Source: Pedosphaera sp. (GTDB taxonomy: Bacteria > Verrucomicrobiota > Verrucomicrobiia > Limisphaerales > SIBH01). Taken from it: a stretch of 55,123 nucleotides of DNA. A model generated the notes under the pieces. That model saw nothing but the letters and a program-made list of their open reading frames with translations, ran no database searches and was not told where the DNA came from. The DNA is taken from the NCBI GenBank assembly GCA_009695285.1, contig SIBH01000002.1, forward strand, positions 1 to 55,123. The letters are read 5' to 3'. Position numbers and translations under genes: made by a program. Positions 8,787 through 54,397 of the stretch are shown one piece after another. The first letter of the stretch is position 1. Each line of letters opens with the position of its first letter.

Positions 8787-9323
8787 TTTAGTCGGGCCGC
8801 CTCGTCACGGTTTCCCCCCTTCCTTCCCGGAATCGCCTGTTGAACCTCTGCAAAACTCCAGCCCATCGTCGCGGTTGGCCAGCAGACCGCCCGTTTCTCC
8901 ACCTAAACCGGAACCAAGCAGTAGGAATGGGGAGCGCGCCCGCCTCGGGCGCAGTGGGTCGCGCCCTCGCGACCCACGAGTTGCGCCTGGACTCCCCCCA
9001 CTGTTCGGTACGTTCCGGCGCGCTCGTGTTCGGCGCGCGGGCGCCCCGAATAGCAGCCGGGTCGGCTGCGCTCCCCTGCATTTCAACTGCCGGGAAGCGA
9101 CCACGCAGGATTAAGTATAAACCCGAACTCCGAAGTCGGAACCGGGCAGGCGCGCGTAGTTCAGGCCTTCGCGCCTGCTGTATCGCGGGTTTCCAAACCT
9201 GCGCCCGCTGGGACTTTTGGTGCGCCGCGTCGTCCGAGGCCCTGCCGACTTGGAAGTCGGCGACACAGCAGGTTTGGAAACCCGCGCTACGGGCGCCAGC
9301 CGAGGCCAAATTCGGAATTCGGA
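8787..9323. repeat. Gene-free repeat block of 537 bases with hairpins and inverted repeats
   Basis: No convincing gene is seen. The block contains a perfect 10-bp hairpin at 8954-8977 (GTGGGTCGCG, loop CCCT). A long inverted repeat has arms at 9180-9202 and 9268-9290 (core GCGGGTTTCCAAACCTGC, 22 of 23 matching). Between these arms, at 9245-9260, is an internal hairpin CCGACTTGGAAGTCGG. It separates the convergent lipoprotein and fdhD genes, so it may also end transcription from both sides. The make-up suggests a cluster of decayed palindromic repeat units. Confidence 0.7.
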
Positions 9324-10223: not shown

Positions 10224-12533
10224 TCACGGCGATTTCTCCACGCGCACCTGCGCGTTGTAATCCGGCACGCCGCCGAGCGTGTCGGTCAGGCCGCGACGGA
10301 TCAGATGGTTCGCCTCCGGCCAGTGGACCTGCAAGTTGCCGCGCGCAATTGGCGCGAGAAAGACCCGGCCCTCGTAGCGGCCCAGATCGTTCACCAGCGT
10401 GATGCGGTCGCTCTGCGCGAGGTGCAGCCGCGCGGCATCGTCCGGGTTGAAGAAAACCGCGTCGCGCGCCGCGCCGGTGAGCGGGTCAATCTCGGCGTAG
10501 ATGAGCGTGTTGAACTGTTTGCCGCGCCGCGTGCTGACTTCAAACGTGTCACCCGCTGAATGATCCGCGAGCTTCGGCAACTCCACGACGCGGAAATGTG
10601 CCTGGCCGTCGGCGGTGGCGAACTGGCCGTTGGCACAAAGATGCGCGCCGCCATATTGAAAAGCGTCGCCGGTTTTGTGGAGGTGCTGAAAGCCGTCGTA
10701 GAACGGGACGACGCGGGCGATCTCGTCGCGCATGGCCTGGCCCGTTTCGCAGCCGAGCAGGTGGGCGCGCTCCGGCCAGACGGCGGCGGCCAGCTCGCGC
10801 AAAATTTTCCACTCCGCCTTGCACTCGCCGACCTGACGCGGGATTTCCGGACTGAAAATGATGCGGCGTTCGGTGGTGGTTTCCGTGCCTCCGTCATCCT
10901 GTTCGTAGCGCGTTTTCGCCGGGAGCAGGATGACCTCCTCCTTCGCCTCGATGAACATCTGGTCGGTGAGGATGATGTCCTGGTGGACGCGCAGCGGGAC
11001 GTTGGCCATCGCGCGGGCCACGTAATCCGGCTCCGGCAAGGTGCGGAGAAAATTTCCGCCGAGACAATAAAGCACGTCGAGCTGGCCGCGCGCGCCCTGC
11101 TCGACCATGTCCACGGCGGTCAGTCCGGGCCAGTCGGGCACGGGGAAACCGTATTGTTCGGAAAGATTTTTGGCGTTCGCGGCGTTGACGGTCTTGCCGC
11201 CGGGGAAGGCCGTGGCATAGGCGCCCATCTCCGCGCCGCCCTGCACGCTGCTGTGGCCGCGGATCGGCATGAGGCCGTTTTTGTCGCGGCCCACGTAGCC
11301 GCGCGCGAGGCCGAGGTTGAGCACCATCGAGACGCCGTCGCCGCCGTAGGCGTGCTGCGTGATGCCCATGCTCCAGACGAGCACGGCGTTTTTCGCGTCG
11401 CGGATCAGCTCGGCAAACTCCCGCATGTCGGCGCGGGTCAGGCCGGACTGCGCCTCCAAGGTTTCCAGTTTCAGGCCTTCCGTTTTCAGTTTCAGCTCTT
11501 GAAAATCCGCCGTGTGCCCGCGGATGAAGGATTCATTCGTCCAGCCGTTCTCGAACAATATTTTTAACACGCCGTAGAGAAACGCGATGTCGCCGCCCTG
11601 GCTCACGGGAAACCAGTAGTCCATGAGATCGCTGCCGAAGAGCGCGCTGCTCGCCGTGCTCGGCACCCAGTAACGCTCCATGCCCGGTTCGCGATACGGG
11701 TTCACGCAGACGATTTTCGTGCCGAGCGCTTTGGCCTCGTGGAGATATTTGGTGGTGACCGGTTGGTCGTTGGCGGGGTTCGCGCCGAAGAAAATAATCA
11801 GGTCGGTGCCATACCAGTCCTGGTAGCTGCACGTCGAGGCGGCAACGCCGATGGCGTGCTTCATCGCGCCGGTGCTGGGCGAATGGCAGAGGCGCGCGGC
11901 GTTATCGACGTTGTTCGTGCCGAGGAAGCGCGCGACTTTCTGCGCCATGTAATAAATCTCGTTGGTCACGCCGCGCGAGGTGACGAAGAAGGCGAAGCGA
12001 TGCGGATCGGTATCGCGGATTTTTTTGGCGATGCGCGCGTAGGCGTCGTCCCAGGAGATGCGGCGGAAACCGCGCGCGCCGTGTTCGCGCAGCAAAGGGC
12101 AGGGGATGCGGCCGAGTTCGCGGAGTTGGGCGTTGTCGAATTCCGGAGCGCCGCTCTCCGAGCCGGCGCGTTTGGGGTTTGATTCGCGCCGGGTCGGAGA
12201 CCGGCGCTCCGCCGCGAGTTTCATCCGCAGCTCTTCCACGTTCTCAAGCAGCCTTTCATCTAGCGCCGGCATGGTGTTCAACCGAAGCAGATTCAACCGC
12301 GTCATGCACAGGTGCGTGCCCTTGATCGTCCAGTCATGCAGCCCGGCGACGCCGAGCGCGCAGCCGTCGCACACGCCCTTGGTGATGACCTTCCACGCGT
12401 AGCCGAGATTATCGCGGTTCTTCCAGACGATCTCGGCCATGTCGCGGAAATGTTTGGGCTTGGTCTGGCCGAGACCGAAGGGCACGACGGATTGCAGGCG
12501 GGCTTTCCAGTTTTTTGTGATGCGGCGCGACAT
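10224..12533 (-). CDS. FdhF/YdeP-type molybdopterin oxidoreductase alpha subunit
   Basis: A 769-residue bis-MGD enzyme of the family often labelled formate dehydrogenase alpha or YdeP; true substrate unknown. The N-terminus has a reduced Fe-S motif, C55-x2-C58 (VCDGCALG), and C76, rather than the classic four-Cys arrangement. The molybdenum-site block is NAARLCHSPSTGAMKHAIG (C217). Further family motifs are DLIIFFGANPANDQP, YGGDGVSMVLNLGLARG, PIRGHSSVQGGAEMG, LGGNFLRTLPEPD and the C-terminal cofactor domain (RRGKQFNTLIY). No Tat signal, so cytoplasmic. Residues 108-130 are encoded by an inserted palindrome, and a second short repeat sits at 11461-11495. fdhD follows 81 bases downstream, consistent with a maturation pair; no electron-transfer subunit is adjacent. 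Confidence 0.9.
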   Translation of the reverse strand: MSRRITKNWKARLQSVVPFGLGQTKPKHFRDMAEIVWKNRDNLGYAWKVITKGVCDGCALGVAGLHDWTIKGTHLCMTRLNLLRLNTMPALDERLLENVEELRMKLAAERRSPTRRESNPKRAGSESGAPEFDNAQLRELGRIPCPLLREHGARGFRRISWDDAYARIAKKIRDTDPHRFAFFVTSRGVTNEIYYMAQKVARFLGTNNVDNAARLCHSPSTGAMKHAIGVAASTCSYQDWYGTDLIIFFGANPANDQPVTTKYLHEAKALGTKIVCVNPYREPGMERYWVPSTASSALFGSDLMDYWFPVSQGGDIAFLYGVLKILFENGWTNESFIRGHTADFQELKLKTEGLKLETLEAQSGLTRADMREFAELIRDAKNAVLVWSMGITQHAYGGDGVSMVLNLGLARGYVGRDKNGLMPIRGHSSVQGGAEMGAYATAFPGGKTVNAANAKNLSEQYGFPVPDWPGLTAVDMVEQGARGQLDVLYCLGGNFLRTLPEPDYVARAMANVPLRVHQDIILTDQMFIEAKEEVILLPAKTRYEQDDGGTETTTERRIIFSPEIPRQVGECKAEWKILRELAAAVWPERAHLLGCETGQAMRDEIARVVPFYDGFQHLHKTGDAFQYGGAHLCANGQFATADGQAHFRVVELPKLADHSAGDTFEVSTRRGKQFNTLIYAEIDPLTGAARDAVFFNPDDAARLHLAQSDRITLVNDLGRYEGRVFLAPIARGNLQVHWPEANHLIRRGLTDTLGGVPDYNAQVRVEKSP
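11461..11495. repeat. CTGAAAC short-unit repeat inside the molybdopterin oxidoreductase gene
   Basis: On the coding (minus) strand this reads CTGAAACTGAAAACG, a spacer, then CTGAAACTGGAAAC, encoding a low-complexity LKLKTEGLKLET stretch between GHTADFQE and LEAQSGLTRAD. It resembles the simple repeats found between genes, but it keeps the frame open. Confidence 0.6.
12145..12210. repeat. 66-base palindromic element inside the molybdopterin oxidoreductase gene
   Basis: Arms 12145-12170 and 12185-12210 are 26 bases each and match at 24 positions when folded, with a 14-base spacer. Both ends carry GGAGCGCCG/CGGCGCTCC, shared with the intergenic palindrome at 54325-54397. It is translated in frame as a basic, low-complexity insert between the conserved LNLLRLNTMPALDE and LRELGRIPCPLLR segments, a region where family members, as recalled, are shorter. 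Confidence 0.88.
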
Positions 12534-27940: not shown

Positions 27941-28022
27941 GTTGGAGTTCACGCTTCAACGTGTGAGTCTCTGTTCAGGGAGTTGGTGCGTCATGGGAAC
28001 AAGCTAAAGCTTGAACTCCAGC

Positions 28023-38297: not shown

Positions 38298-38487
38298 CCG
38301 GTCCCGCAGGGACGCGCGAAAACAGCCCAGTGCTTTAGCACTGGGTTTGCGGCACCGCCGAACGAGTTCCGCAGGGACGGCAGAACCGGGCGTGGAATTC
38401 TGCCGTCCCTGCGGGACTTGGCCCGCAACATTCCTCCAACCCAGCGATGAATCGCTGGGCTATTTTCGGGCGTCCCTGAGGGACGGG
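38298..38487. repeat. About 190-base nested palindromic (MITE-like) element
   Basis: The gene-free stretch 38259-38745 contains one large dyad. Outer arms begin GTCCCGCAGGGACG at the left and, inverted, GTCCCTCAGGGACG at the right, each running into (C/G)CGAAAA(C/T)AGCCCAG. Each half holds a hairpin: CCCAGTGCT-TT-AGCACTGGG (38326-38345) and CCCAGCGAT-GA-ATCGCTGGG (38440-38459). The centre is a perfect 17-base inverted repeat (38369-38385 with 38398-38414). It could fold into a cruciform. No transposase gene is inside. Confidence 0.88.
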
Positions 38488-46113: not shown

Positions 46114-46169
46114 CGAATGACGAACCAACGTGCGCCGACAACACGGAGCGCATCCTGACCCTGCCCCCA

Positions 46170-46272
46170 GAGCGCGGATCTGTGACCCGCAGCGACTGGC
46201 GAAAACAGGGAACAATCGAGTTGTTGAGCACGCCTCCCATGGCCATGCGCTGCGGGGCTCAGACCCGCGCTC
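46170..46272. repeat. Palindromic element between rlmN and the DUF5722 gene
   Basis: Arms 46170-46194 and 46248-46272 (25 bases, 22 matching when folded), beginning GAGCGCGG and ending CCGCGCTC, with a 53-base interior. Similar end sequences to the elements at 12145-12210 and 54325-54397. It ends 47 bases before the start codon of the next gene. Confidence 0.85.
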
Positions 46273-46318
46273 CGTTCAAATTCAGACGCCACGTATTTTT
46301 CGTCACACTCGAACCCAG

Positions 46319-47887
46319 ATGAACCTTCCCCGTATCCTGCTGCTGGCCGGCCTGCTGTTGGCGCGGGGAATGTTTGCCGCGGGGGGCGTCACCCACGTGC
46401 TGGCCACGGCGGATGAAATCATTCTCACCGTCCAGGGATCGGGCGCGGTGCAGATCGTCGAACTCGCGCCTTACGAAACGATCTCCCACGCCGGCCAGGC
46501 ACCGTGCGTCGCCTCGGCGATGCTGGCCGCGGAAACGCGCGTGGCGTTCCCGCGATTCGCGGCGGGTCGCGACCGGATTTATTCCGGGTTTCTCGCGCAG
46601 CCAGCCGGGCCGGGCCGGGAACCGGCCGCGCTCGGCGGGATTTTTTTCGTGGACGAGATGCGCGGCGTCTCAAAAAGCGACGAGCCGTTTCCCGTCGTGG
46701 CCAGCAAGAAGGGCTTGCAGGTGCAGATGGTCGATGACGCCATCGCGCTCGGCGTGAAACACGCGGCGTTGAATTTCAACGTGGCCGCGATGTTCGACCT
46801 CGCGCGCGGCACGAACAATTACGTCTGGCGCATGGACGGGCAGGATTATTATTTCAACCGCCGGATGATCGACTCGGTGCCGGTGAAAAAACTGACCGAC
46901 GCCGGGGCGACGGTGACGCTGATCCTGCTGGCCTATCAGTCACGCAATCCGCTAATCGACCGCTTGGTGTTGCATCCACGCGCGGTCACGAACGCGCCGA
47001 ACCACATCGCGGCGTTCAACACCTCCACGCCGGACGGACTGCGGTATTTCAAGGCGGGCATGGAGTTTCTCGCCGATCACTATTTGCGGCCTGACCGGAA
47101 ATATGGGCGGGCGGTGAACTTCATCGTTGGCAACGAGGTGAACGCGCACTGGTTCTGGTACAATCTGGGCCCGGCGGCGATGGAGACGGTGGCGGAGGAT
47201 TATCTCCGCACCGTGCGCGTCGTCCACACCGCCGTGCGCAAGAGCAGTTCCACGGCGCGCGTTTATCTGTCACTCGATCATCATTGGAACATTGTCTATA
47301 CCGGCAATCCGCAGCGCGCCTGCACGGGCCAAGCGCTGGTGGACGAGATGAACCGCCGCTCGAAGCTCGGCGGCGATTTCGACTGGCACATCGCGTTTCA
47401 TCCGTACCCGGAAAACTTGTTCAAGCCGCGCGTCTGGCTCGACCGGACGGCGACGAACAGCGTGAACTCGCCGCGCATCACGTTCAAAAACCTGGAGCAG
47501 CTCACCCGTTACCTGCGCCAGCCTGAACTACTTTGTCAGGGCGTGCCGCGCCGGGTGATCTTGTCGGAGCAGGGTTTTCATTCGGACGCCACGCCGCAGG
47601 GTGAAGAACTGCAGGCGGCGGCTTATTGCTACGCCTCTTGGAAGACGGATCACCTCGACGGCATCGACTCGTTCATCTTGCACCGCCACGTCGATCACAA
47701 AATGGAGGGCGGACTGAACCTCGGCCTGTGGACGCGCCAGACCAATTCCATCGCCACGCCGCTCGCAAAGAAAAAGATTTACGAGGTCTTCAAGGCTGCC
47801 GACACGCCGGGCCGGAACCGGGCGTTCGCCTTCGCGCTGCCGTTGATCGGCATCACGAATTGGAGCCAGGTTCTGCCGGGGAAGTGA
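46319..47887 (+). CDS. Secreted DUF5722 (glycoside-hydrolase-like) protein
   Basis: A 522-residue exported protein (signal peptide about 1-21, LLLAGLLLARGMFAAGG). The body from about residue 120 is a TIM-barrel-like domain of the DUF5722 type: VDDAIALGVKHAALNFNV, YYFNRRMIDSV, VNFIVGNEVNAHWFWYN with an Asn-Glu pair suited to an acid/base, IAFHPYPENLF, and VILSEQGFHSD with a candidate nucleophile Glu. The arrangement resembles clan GH-A glycosidases; the substrate is unknown. The frame is open far upstream, but those codons run through a palindromic repeat, so the ATG at 46319 with the signal peptide is preferred. Confidence 0.8.
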   Translation: MNLPRILLLAGLLLARGMFAAGGVTHVLATADEIILTVQGSGAVQIVELAPYETISHAGQAPCVASAMLAAETRVAFPRFAAGRDRIYSGFLAQPAGPGREPAALGGIFFVDEMRGVSKSDEPFPVVASKKGLQVQMVDDAIALGVKHAALNFNVAAMFDLARGTNNYVWRMDGQDYYFNRRMIDSVPVKKLTDAGATVTLILLAYQSRNPLIDRLVLHPRAVTNAPNHIAAFNTSTPDGLRYFKAGMEFLADHYLRPDRKYGRAVNFIVGNEVNAHWFWYNLGPAAMETVAEDYLRTVRVVHTAVRKSSSTARVYLSLDHHWNIVYTGNPQRACTGQALVDEMNRRSKLGGDFDWHIAFHPYPENLFKPRVWLDRTATNSVNSPRITFKNLEQLTRYLRQPELLCQGVPRRVILSEQGFHSDATPQGEELQAAAYCYASWKTDHLDGIDSFILHRHVDHKMEGGLNLGLWTRQTNSIATPLAKKKIYEVFKAADTPGRNRAFAFALPLIGITNWSQVLPGK

Positions 47888-52999: not shown

Positions 53000-53059
53000 G
53001 TTTGGAGTTCCGCCTTCTGGCGGTTCCGCAGCTTGCCGCCTAAAGGCGGAACTCCAAAC
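53000..53059. repeat. Palindromic repeat before glycerate kinase
   Basis: Arms 53000-53023 and 53036-53059 (24 bases, 22 matching when folded), starting GTTTGGAGTTCCGCC, with a 12-base spacer. It begins 15 bases after the previous stop and ends 39 bases before the glycerate kinase start. Confidence 0.88.
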
Positions 53060-54324: not shown

Positions 54325-54397
54325 GACGGAGCGCCGAGCATTGATCGGCTTGGGCGGGAAGATGTCCCTCCTGCCGGGCAATGCCCGGCGCTCCGTC
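54325..54397. repeat. GGAGCGCCG palindromic element before the GbsR-type gene
   Basis: Arms 54325-54349 and 54373-54397 (25 bases, 22 matching when folded), beginning GACGGAGCGCCG and ending CGGCGCTCCGTC, with a 23-base loop. It shares its terminal motif with the element inside the molybdopterin oxidoreductase gene. It occupies much of the 298-base gene-free stretch 54233-54530. Confidence 0.88.

Follow-up and report, generated by a model that had tools for sequence, protein, structure and literature searches.

A GGAG-tagged REPIN-like element in frame within a FdhF/YdeP-type oxidoreductase gene of the Limisphaerales

Introduction

REPs are usually regarded as extragenic. REPINs, in which two short imperfect palindromes form an inverted doublet around a spacer, have been described as dispersed extragenic elements that occur together with a HuH tyrosine transposase gene (Bertels and Rainey 2011, PMC3116915). 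The unit recognised by the E. coli enzyme TnpA-REP is a tetranucleotide followed by a bulged hairpin, and its GTAG tolerates no substitution (PMC8266576). REPs tagged with GTAG or CGTC lie in frame in several bacteria, including Opitutus terrae (Verrucomicrobia), and their targets include genes for tRNA synthetases and for DNA repair (Di Nocera et al. 2013, PMC3733652). The classic in-frame mobile palindromes are the Rickettsia palindromic elements (RPE), which, according to the passages on them in PMC6649704 and PMC10969869, are tolerated in unrelated protein genes (Ogata et al. 2000, 2002, cited therein).

Here we describe a palindrome at positions 12145-12210 of a 55,123-nt stretch of Pedosphaera sp. 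DNA (contig SIBH01000002.1), hereafter called the window. Its family shares with REPINs and their REP-associated tyrosine transposases (RAYTs; PMC3116915) the inverted doublet, the spacer, the dispersal and an associated HuH tyrosine transposase gene, but has a GGAG tag and in-frame copies both in conserved genes and within the coding sequence of the RAYT. With the E. coli system (PMC8266576) it has in common a unit made of a tetranucleotide and a bulged hairpin, and a HuH tyrosine transposase, whereas the tag here is GGAG in nearly all copies. As in Opitutus terrae (PMC3733652), REPs or their dimers encode 20-30 aa in genes, and the dimers have outward-facing tags (HH there); here, however, the tag is GGAG, the host belongs to another order of Verrucomicrobiota, the cognate RAYT holds an internal in-frame copy, the frame bias is measured, and one site is common to several families, with subfamily exchange. 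The likeness to RPE (in frame, in unrelated genes, tolerated) is one of behaviour only. Rickettsia belongs to another phylum and its elements have another sequence; the relevant passage of PMC10969869 gives RPE-1 as longer, about 150 bp, and the RAYT link found here is not claimed for RPE in the passages of PMC6649704 and PMC10969869 that deal with them.

Results

The palindrome lies within an intact gene of the reverse strand. The reading frame is open over 769 aa with 0 internal stops, and the protein matches TIGR01701 (FdhF/YdeP family oxidoreductase, NCBIfam) with 641.4 bits, above the curated cut-off of 582.15, which places it in the FdhF/YdeP family. A first, sequence-only reading of the window had put the palindrome in frame at residues 108-130 of such a gene, and 108-130 are indeed the codons that it touches according to the coordinates. 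Pfam locates a Molybdopterin domain at 142-583 and a Molydop_binding domain at 667-760, and the alignment with the nearest solved relatives begins only at about residue 140; the insert therefore occupies a linker that joins the N-terminal region to the catalytic domain. The features of the locus are as follows.

10224-12533, reverse strand: FdhF/YdeP family molybdopterin oxidoreductase gene, 769 aa, intact
12145-12210, reverse strand: REPIN-like element, 66 nt from tag to tag, in frame; recognised by inverted repeat, alignment insert and in-frame census
12187-12210, reverse strand: first REP arm in the sense of the gene, GGAGCGCCGGTCTCCGACCCGGCG; exact family consensus with 0 mismatches, own pair G10-C18
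12145-12168, forward strand: second REP arm, GGAGCGCCGCTCTCCGAGCCGGCG; 2 mismatches to the consensus, which jointly form a compensatory pair C10-G18 of its own hairpin
12169-12186, no strand: spacer (loop) that separates the arms and differs among copies in sequence and length
12207-12210, reverse strand: GGAG tag of the first arm, facing outward and preceded by C, as in most copies
12145-12148, forward strand: GGAG tag of the second arm, facing outward and preceded by C
54328-54394, no strand: intergenic GGAG-tagged doublet with a different core (sister subfamily); recognised by inverted repeat and core comparison

About 60 homologues were compared, and most of them lack the insert. Most same-order homologues read ...LK-KM-DNAQLRELGR..., whereas in the window protein these conserved blocks are separated by 29 residues, and the flanks of the insert are conserved in homologues without it. 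As most homologues lack residues 108-130, the element is an insert relative to them, which is the outcome that the proposed alignment was expected to give. Homologues elsewhere with the same residues, taken beforehand as an argument against insertion, do exist, since three genomes of two other families carry them at the same site; these residues are nevertheless those of a mobile element, and most homologues do without them.

The inverted-repeat search returned arms of 27 nt at 12144-12170 and 12185-12211, complementary at 25/27 positions (93%) and separated by 14 nt; the 26-base arms with 24/26 complementary positions described initially are contained in them. Folded as single-stranded DNA, the palindrome reaches -36.3 kcal/mol (z = -8.7), a value equalled by 0/200 dinucleotide shuffles. 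The element contributes to the peptide ERRSPTRRESNPKRAGSESGAPE and lengthens the protein by about 24 amino acids, which are apparently tolerated. As for the intergenic element at 54325-54397, thought to have matching ends, it is real and has the terminal GGAGCGCCG/CGGCGCTCC in common; because the cores differ, it represents a related subfamily and not the same element.

Copies of the arms are dispersed through both the genome and the order, as a search for them proposed from the sequence had anticipated. The arm pattern with up to 3 mismatches matched 36 times in the window's own genome (G000; 2.15 Mb, 57% complete), compared with 0 for the reversed control. Exact arms were present in 46/320 genomes of the order, with up to 45 copies (reversed control 0), and the named records that contain them are mostly MAGs labelled Verrucomicrobia, Limisphaerales or Pedosphaera. 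In a GC-rich genome with many ORFs in all frames, a chance palindrome or an assembly artefact might be suspected. However, exact arms recur in many genomes while reversed controls give 0, independent assemblies contain the same insert, and the fold has a z-score of -8.7; this explanation can be practically dismissed.

The repeated unit is a 24-nt REP, consisting of the GGAG tag and then a bulged mini-hairpin; two units are paired in inverted orientation with their tags outward and with variable spacers. Among 100 distinct arms, positions 10 and 18 covary as G-C, A-T or C-G (85/100, shuffle maximum 75) and positions 11 and 17 as T-A or C-G (82/100, shuffle maximum 74); all 300 shuffles, which ignore the relatedness of copies, were exceeded. 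Position 19 is unpaired, between the two stem parts of the single arm. Over 125 elements, the own 10-18 pair was kept in 231/250 arms, whereas the two arms of one element agreed at positions 10 and 18 in only 127/250 comparisons. The two apparent mismatches of the present palindrome are these same positions, C10-G18 in one arm and G10-C18 in the other. They are not a private mark of the YdeP locus, the same variant being dispersed in other genomes. The long hairpin was rejected as the selected unit, since the two arms of an element frequently differ although the pairing within each is maintained. Covariation within arms is consistent with recognition of the single REP by a transposase, as reported for the E. 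coli enzyme (PMC8266576), and not with selection on a long stem. The palindrome is thus present, but what had been seen as a simple 26-bp palindrome is a REP doublet (REPIN-like).

The strong predicted fold could instead suggest a palindrome kept as an mRNA structure, an attenuator or a stability element unrelated to mobility. This is very improbable: covariation is found within each arm and not between arms, these arms also occur scattered over spacers and unrelated genes, and no known RNA family of Rfam matches at 12145-12210.

The arm has the properties expected of a REP, a short (20-40 nt) dispersed imperfect palindrome: it is 24 nt long, forms its own hairpin and is dispersed (36 matches against 0), and the hairpin is selected within the single unit (10-18 and 11-17 covariation, unpaired 19). 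The tetranucleotide at its end is GGAG in place of GTAG or CGTC. The arm works like a REP, yet it is neither a GTAG nor a CGTC REP. Each position of the GGAG tag is conserved in at least 95% of arms, and the preceding base is C or T in 92% of cases; beyond this pyrimidine, arm and flank composition revealed no target motif. The REPIN arrangement, two inverted REPs with a spacer able to form one hairpin, was found in 128 distinct inverted pairs in the fetched loci.

Other repeats were noticed in the window and its genome. An inverted doublet at 9180-9290 has a right arm, GTAGCGCGGGTTTCCAAACCTGC on the reverse strand, whose tag resembles the classic GTAG and is followed by a hairpin; two tag types may therefore coexist in the genome. 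The inverted doublets at 53000-53059, 27943-28020 and 46170-46272 have GGAG-like ends and other cores (GGAGTTCCGCC..., GGAGTTCACGC... and GAGCGCGG...) and are probably further REPIN subfamilies; the last of them overlaps a coding-like ORF (46121-47884) near the ORF start. Elsewhere in the genome, inward-facing arms are 231 and 139 bp apart (G000:C100:7608-7839 and G000:C82:3563-3701), so that longer spacers or nested elements exist. Finally, the region 38300-38485 holds two Acido-Lenti-1 RNAs (RF01687) in opposite orientation, at 38300-38345 (reverse) and 38440-38485 (forward), which flank a strong palindrome at 38365-38418.

A distinct RAYT clade of about 260-320 aa has arms at its loci. The RAYT genes of G187, G094 and G148 have both adjoining arms and an arm pair in frame within their own coding sequence; RAYT genes flanked by repeats, as in REPIN/RAYT systems, thus occur in relatives. 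Three RAYT proteins were compared with NF047646 (REP-associated tyrosine transposase, NCBIfam), one scoring above the cut-off and two just below. Arms were found at 10/13 loci with at least 64% identity to the G094 RAYT, compared with 1/17 below 64%. Similarly, an exact arm was present in 9/11 genomes with a full-length RAYT of at least 65% identity and in 37/309 others (Fisher 5.6e-7, kinship ignored). The cognate clade corresponds to weaker Pfam Y1_Tnp hits; the 30 best-scoring Y1_Tnp hits of the relatives were rejected as cognate transposases, having no arms within about 1.5 kb. The transposase that the sequence-only reading had suggested looking for is therefore represented in relatives by a clade with arms, but the window's own genome, at only 57% completeness, showed no RAYT of this clade.

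At the protein level, the in-frame REPIN occupies a homologous site in four RAYT genes (L376, L378, L379 and L380, from G094, G187, G148 and G268), where the REPIN-less relatives L389 and L391 have a short LLGRxGxFWQ stretch (e.g. ...LLGRTGRFWQ...). We tentatively consider that the RAYT gene's in-frame REPIN may act as a coding master copy, in a GGAG-tag system suited to coding DNA. Protein-level selection there might have produced the compensatory C10-G18 variant (PGRRPAL to PARRAAL), copies of which would then have seeded in-frame inserts elsewhere, including that of the YdeP-type enzyme.

In-frame copies are found in other genes as well. Among distinct pairs with enough context, 26/125 lie in frame within an ORF whose codon use is coding-like on both sides, as against 53% of random windows from the same loci, although 26/125 is not an unbiased rate, the loci having been fetched by arm pattern and partly by arm variant. 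Coding copies are therefore depleted, yet far from absent. All sense frames of the arms are free of stop codons. The right arm is read as AGSE(S/T)GAP in 21/26 in-frame copies; counting the YdeP A-form cases (see below) once and leaving out G196, this frame is used in 18/22 independent cases (p = 4e-6 against one third).

Pfam locates copies inside domains, between them or next to them in proteins that include RecQ, UvrD, KsgA, prolyl-tRNA synthetase, a class I tRNA synthetase, AcrB-type transporters, DUF1015, a solute-binding protein, an SDR and an AMP-binding enzyme; some copies are supported on one side only, and some fail a stricter coding filter. Alignments to PDB structures leave clean gaps at the element, at 392/396 in E. 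coli RecQ, 366/373 in valyl-tRNA synthetase (1gax), 347/362 in prolyl-tRNA synthetase and near residue 98 in KsgA. In-frame insertion in unrelated conserved protein genes, the behaviour known from RPE, is thus found here. Two flavodoxin/FAD reductase-type proteins (L321 and L148) carry in-frame copies at different points of the protein.

The insert of the YdeP-type gene recurs at the same nucleotide, in the same frame and with the same arm asymmetry (the A-form) in four genomes of three families, G000, G220, G154 and G094. In G196, and in eroded form in G044, the insert at the YdeP site has a right arm that matches a second subfamily, GGAGCGCCGAACTCCGRTTCGGC; this subfamily is present in high copy in G176 and G002, where it also lies at the RAYT genes. 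When the gene tree is computed with the linker left out, a single clade of the four A-form carriers is rejected (AU p ~1e-41, quick model), and the A-form requires at least 3 changes. Two subfamilies at one site, together with a tree incompatible with a single vertical clade, make it likely that this tolerant linker has undergone turnover or was hit repeatedly.

The shared rare arm variant, found at one site in four genomes, could alternatively reflect common descent. A single old insertion in a common ancestor, lost or eroded in most lineages, would have had to keep its arms near-identical through a host function of the hairpin or peptide, that is, by true domestication. It would account for an insert that, in four genomes from three families, agrees in nucleotide position, in frame and in arm asymmetry; in addition, G000, G220 and G154 showed no further copy with at most 1 mismatch to the variant right arm, and palindrome-less long linkers in related lineages could be eroded inserts. 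However, all 4 arm differences between G000 and G220 alter the amino acid, unlike what protein constraint would give. Sister lineages have the other subfamily or none, the arms equal the consensus of mobile copies elsewhere, the A-form needs at least 3 changes on the gene tree, and one clade is rejected. A single old insert under constraint therefore fits worse than turnover, and we regard it as rather unlikely; it is the shared rare arm variant that keeps it alive.

Carriers scattered on the gene tree and arms identical across families could also result from horizontal transfer, in which homologous recombination, and not transposition at the site, would have carried the insert-bearing gene or segment between families. 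The third positions of the arms are identical between G000 and G220 in 19/19 codons, compared with ~0.52 elsewhere in the gene, and this elevated identity does not extend past the ends of the element. Third-position identity being at background (~0.5-0.6) on both sides and raised only within the element, a recombination tract would have to end exactly there; moreover, the loops differ. A local tract carrying the insert between families thus finds no support, and such a transfer appears distinctly improbable.

Discussion

We consider it highly probable that the feature at 12145-12210 is a REPIN-like non-autonomous mobile element, lodged in a tolerant linker, mobilised by a RAYT clade, at a site of turnover or repeated insertion. 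Several points speak against this reading. The tag is GGAG and not GTAG, and no cognate RAYT was seen in the 57%-complete own genome. No allele pair with identical flanks was found among the sequences, and no insertion event was observed directly.

Most likely, the RAYT clade that has arms around and inside its own gene would mobilise the REPIN-like doublet as single-stranded DNA. Because an arm can be read through in every sense frame, an insertion of compatible length would extend the protein, by about 22-25 residues that are mostly small or polar. Selection would then keep those copies that preserve the frame, in a tolerated frame and at a tolerant site. The YdeP site, where at least two REPIN subfamilies occur across several families, would have undergone turnover or repeated insertion in this way.

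The sequence-only reading of a mobile repeat inserted in a tolerant loop without breaking the enzyme is supported by the alignment insert, the dispersed arms and the RAYT clade that goes with them. It had also called the repeat domesticated, in the sense of having been given a host function; this goes too far, as a tolerated insert suffices, and the insert is apparently neutral for the enzyme.

The GGAG REPIN-like system is real. It is of a known kind, because in-frame REPs have already been described in Rickettsia and Opitutus, and the variant is new; in the open-licence literature we found no paper on a GGAG-tagged REP family or on a REPIN within the coding sequence of its own RAYT. In an order of mostly uncultured Verrucomicrobiota, a REPIN-like family regularly joins conserved proteins, among them helicases, tRNA synthetases, an rRNA methyltransferase and a molybdoenzyme; the preference for one reading frame can be measured, and the cognate transposase itself contains the element. 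In-frame REPINs amount to an insertion scan performed by nature, which marks where important proteins are tolerant. They also open two questions to testing, namely the way in which RAYTs move REPs and the possibility of a tag other than GTAG.
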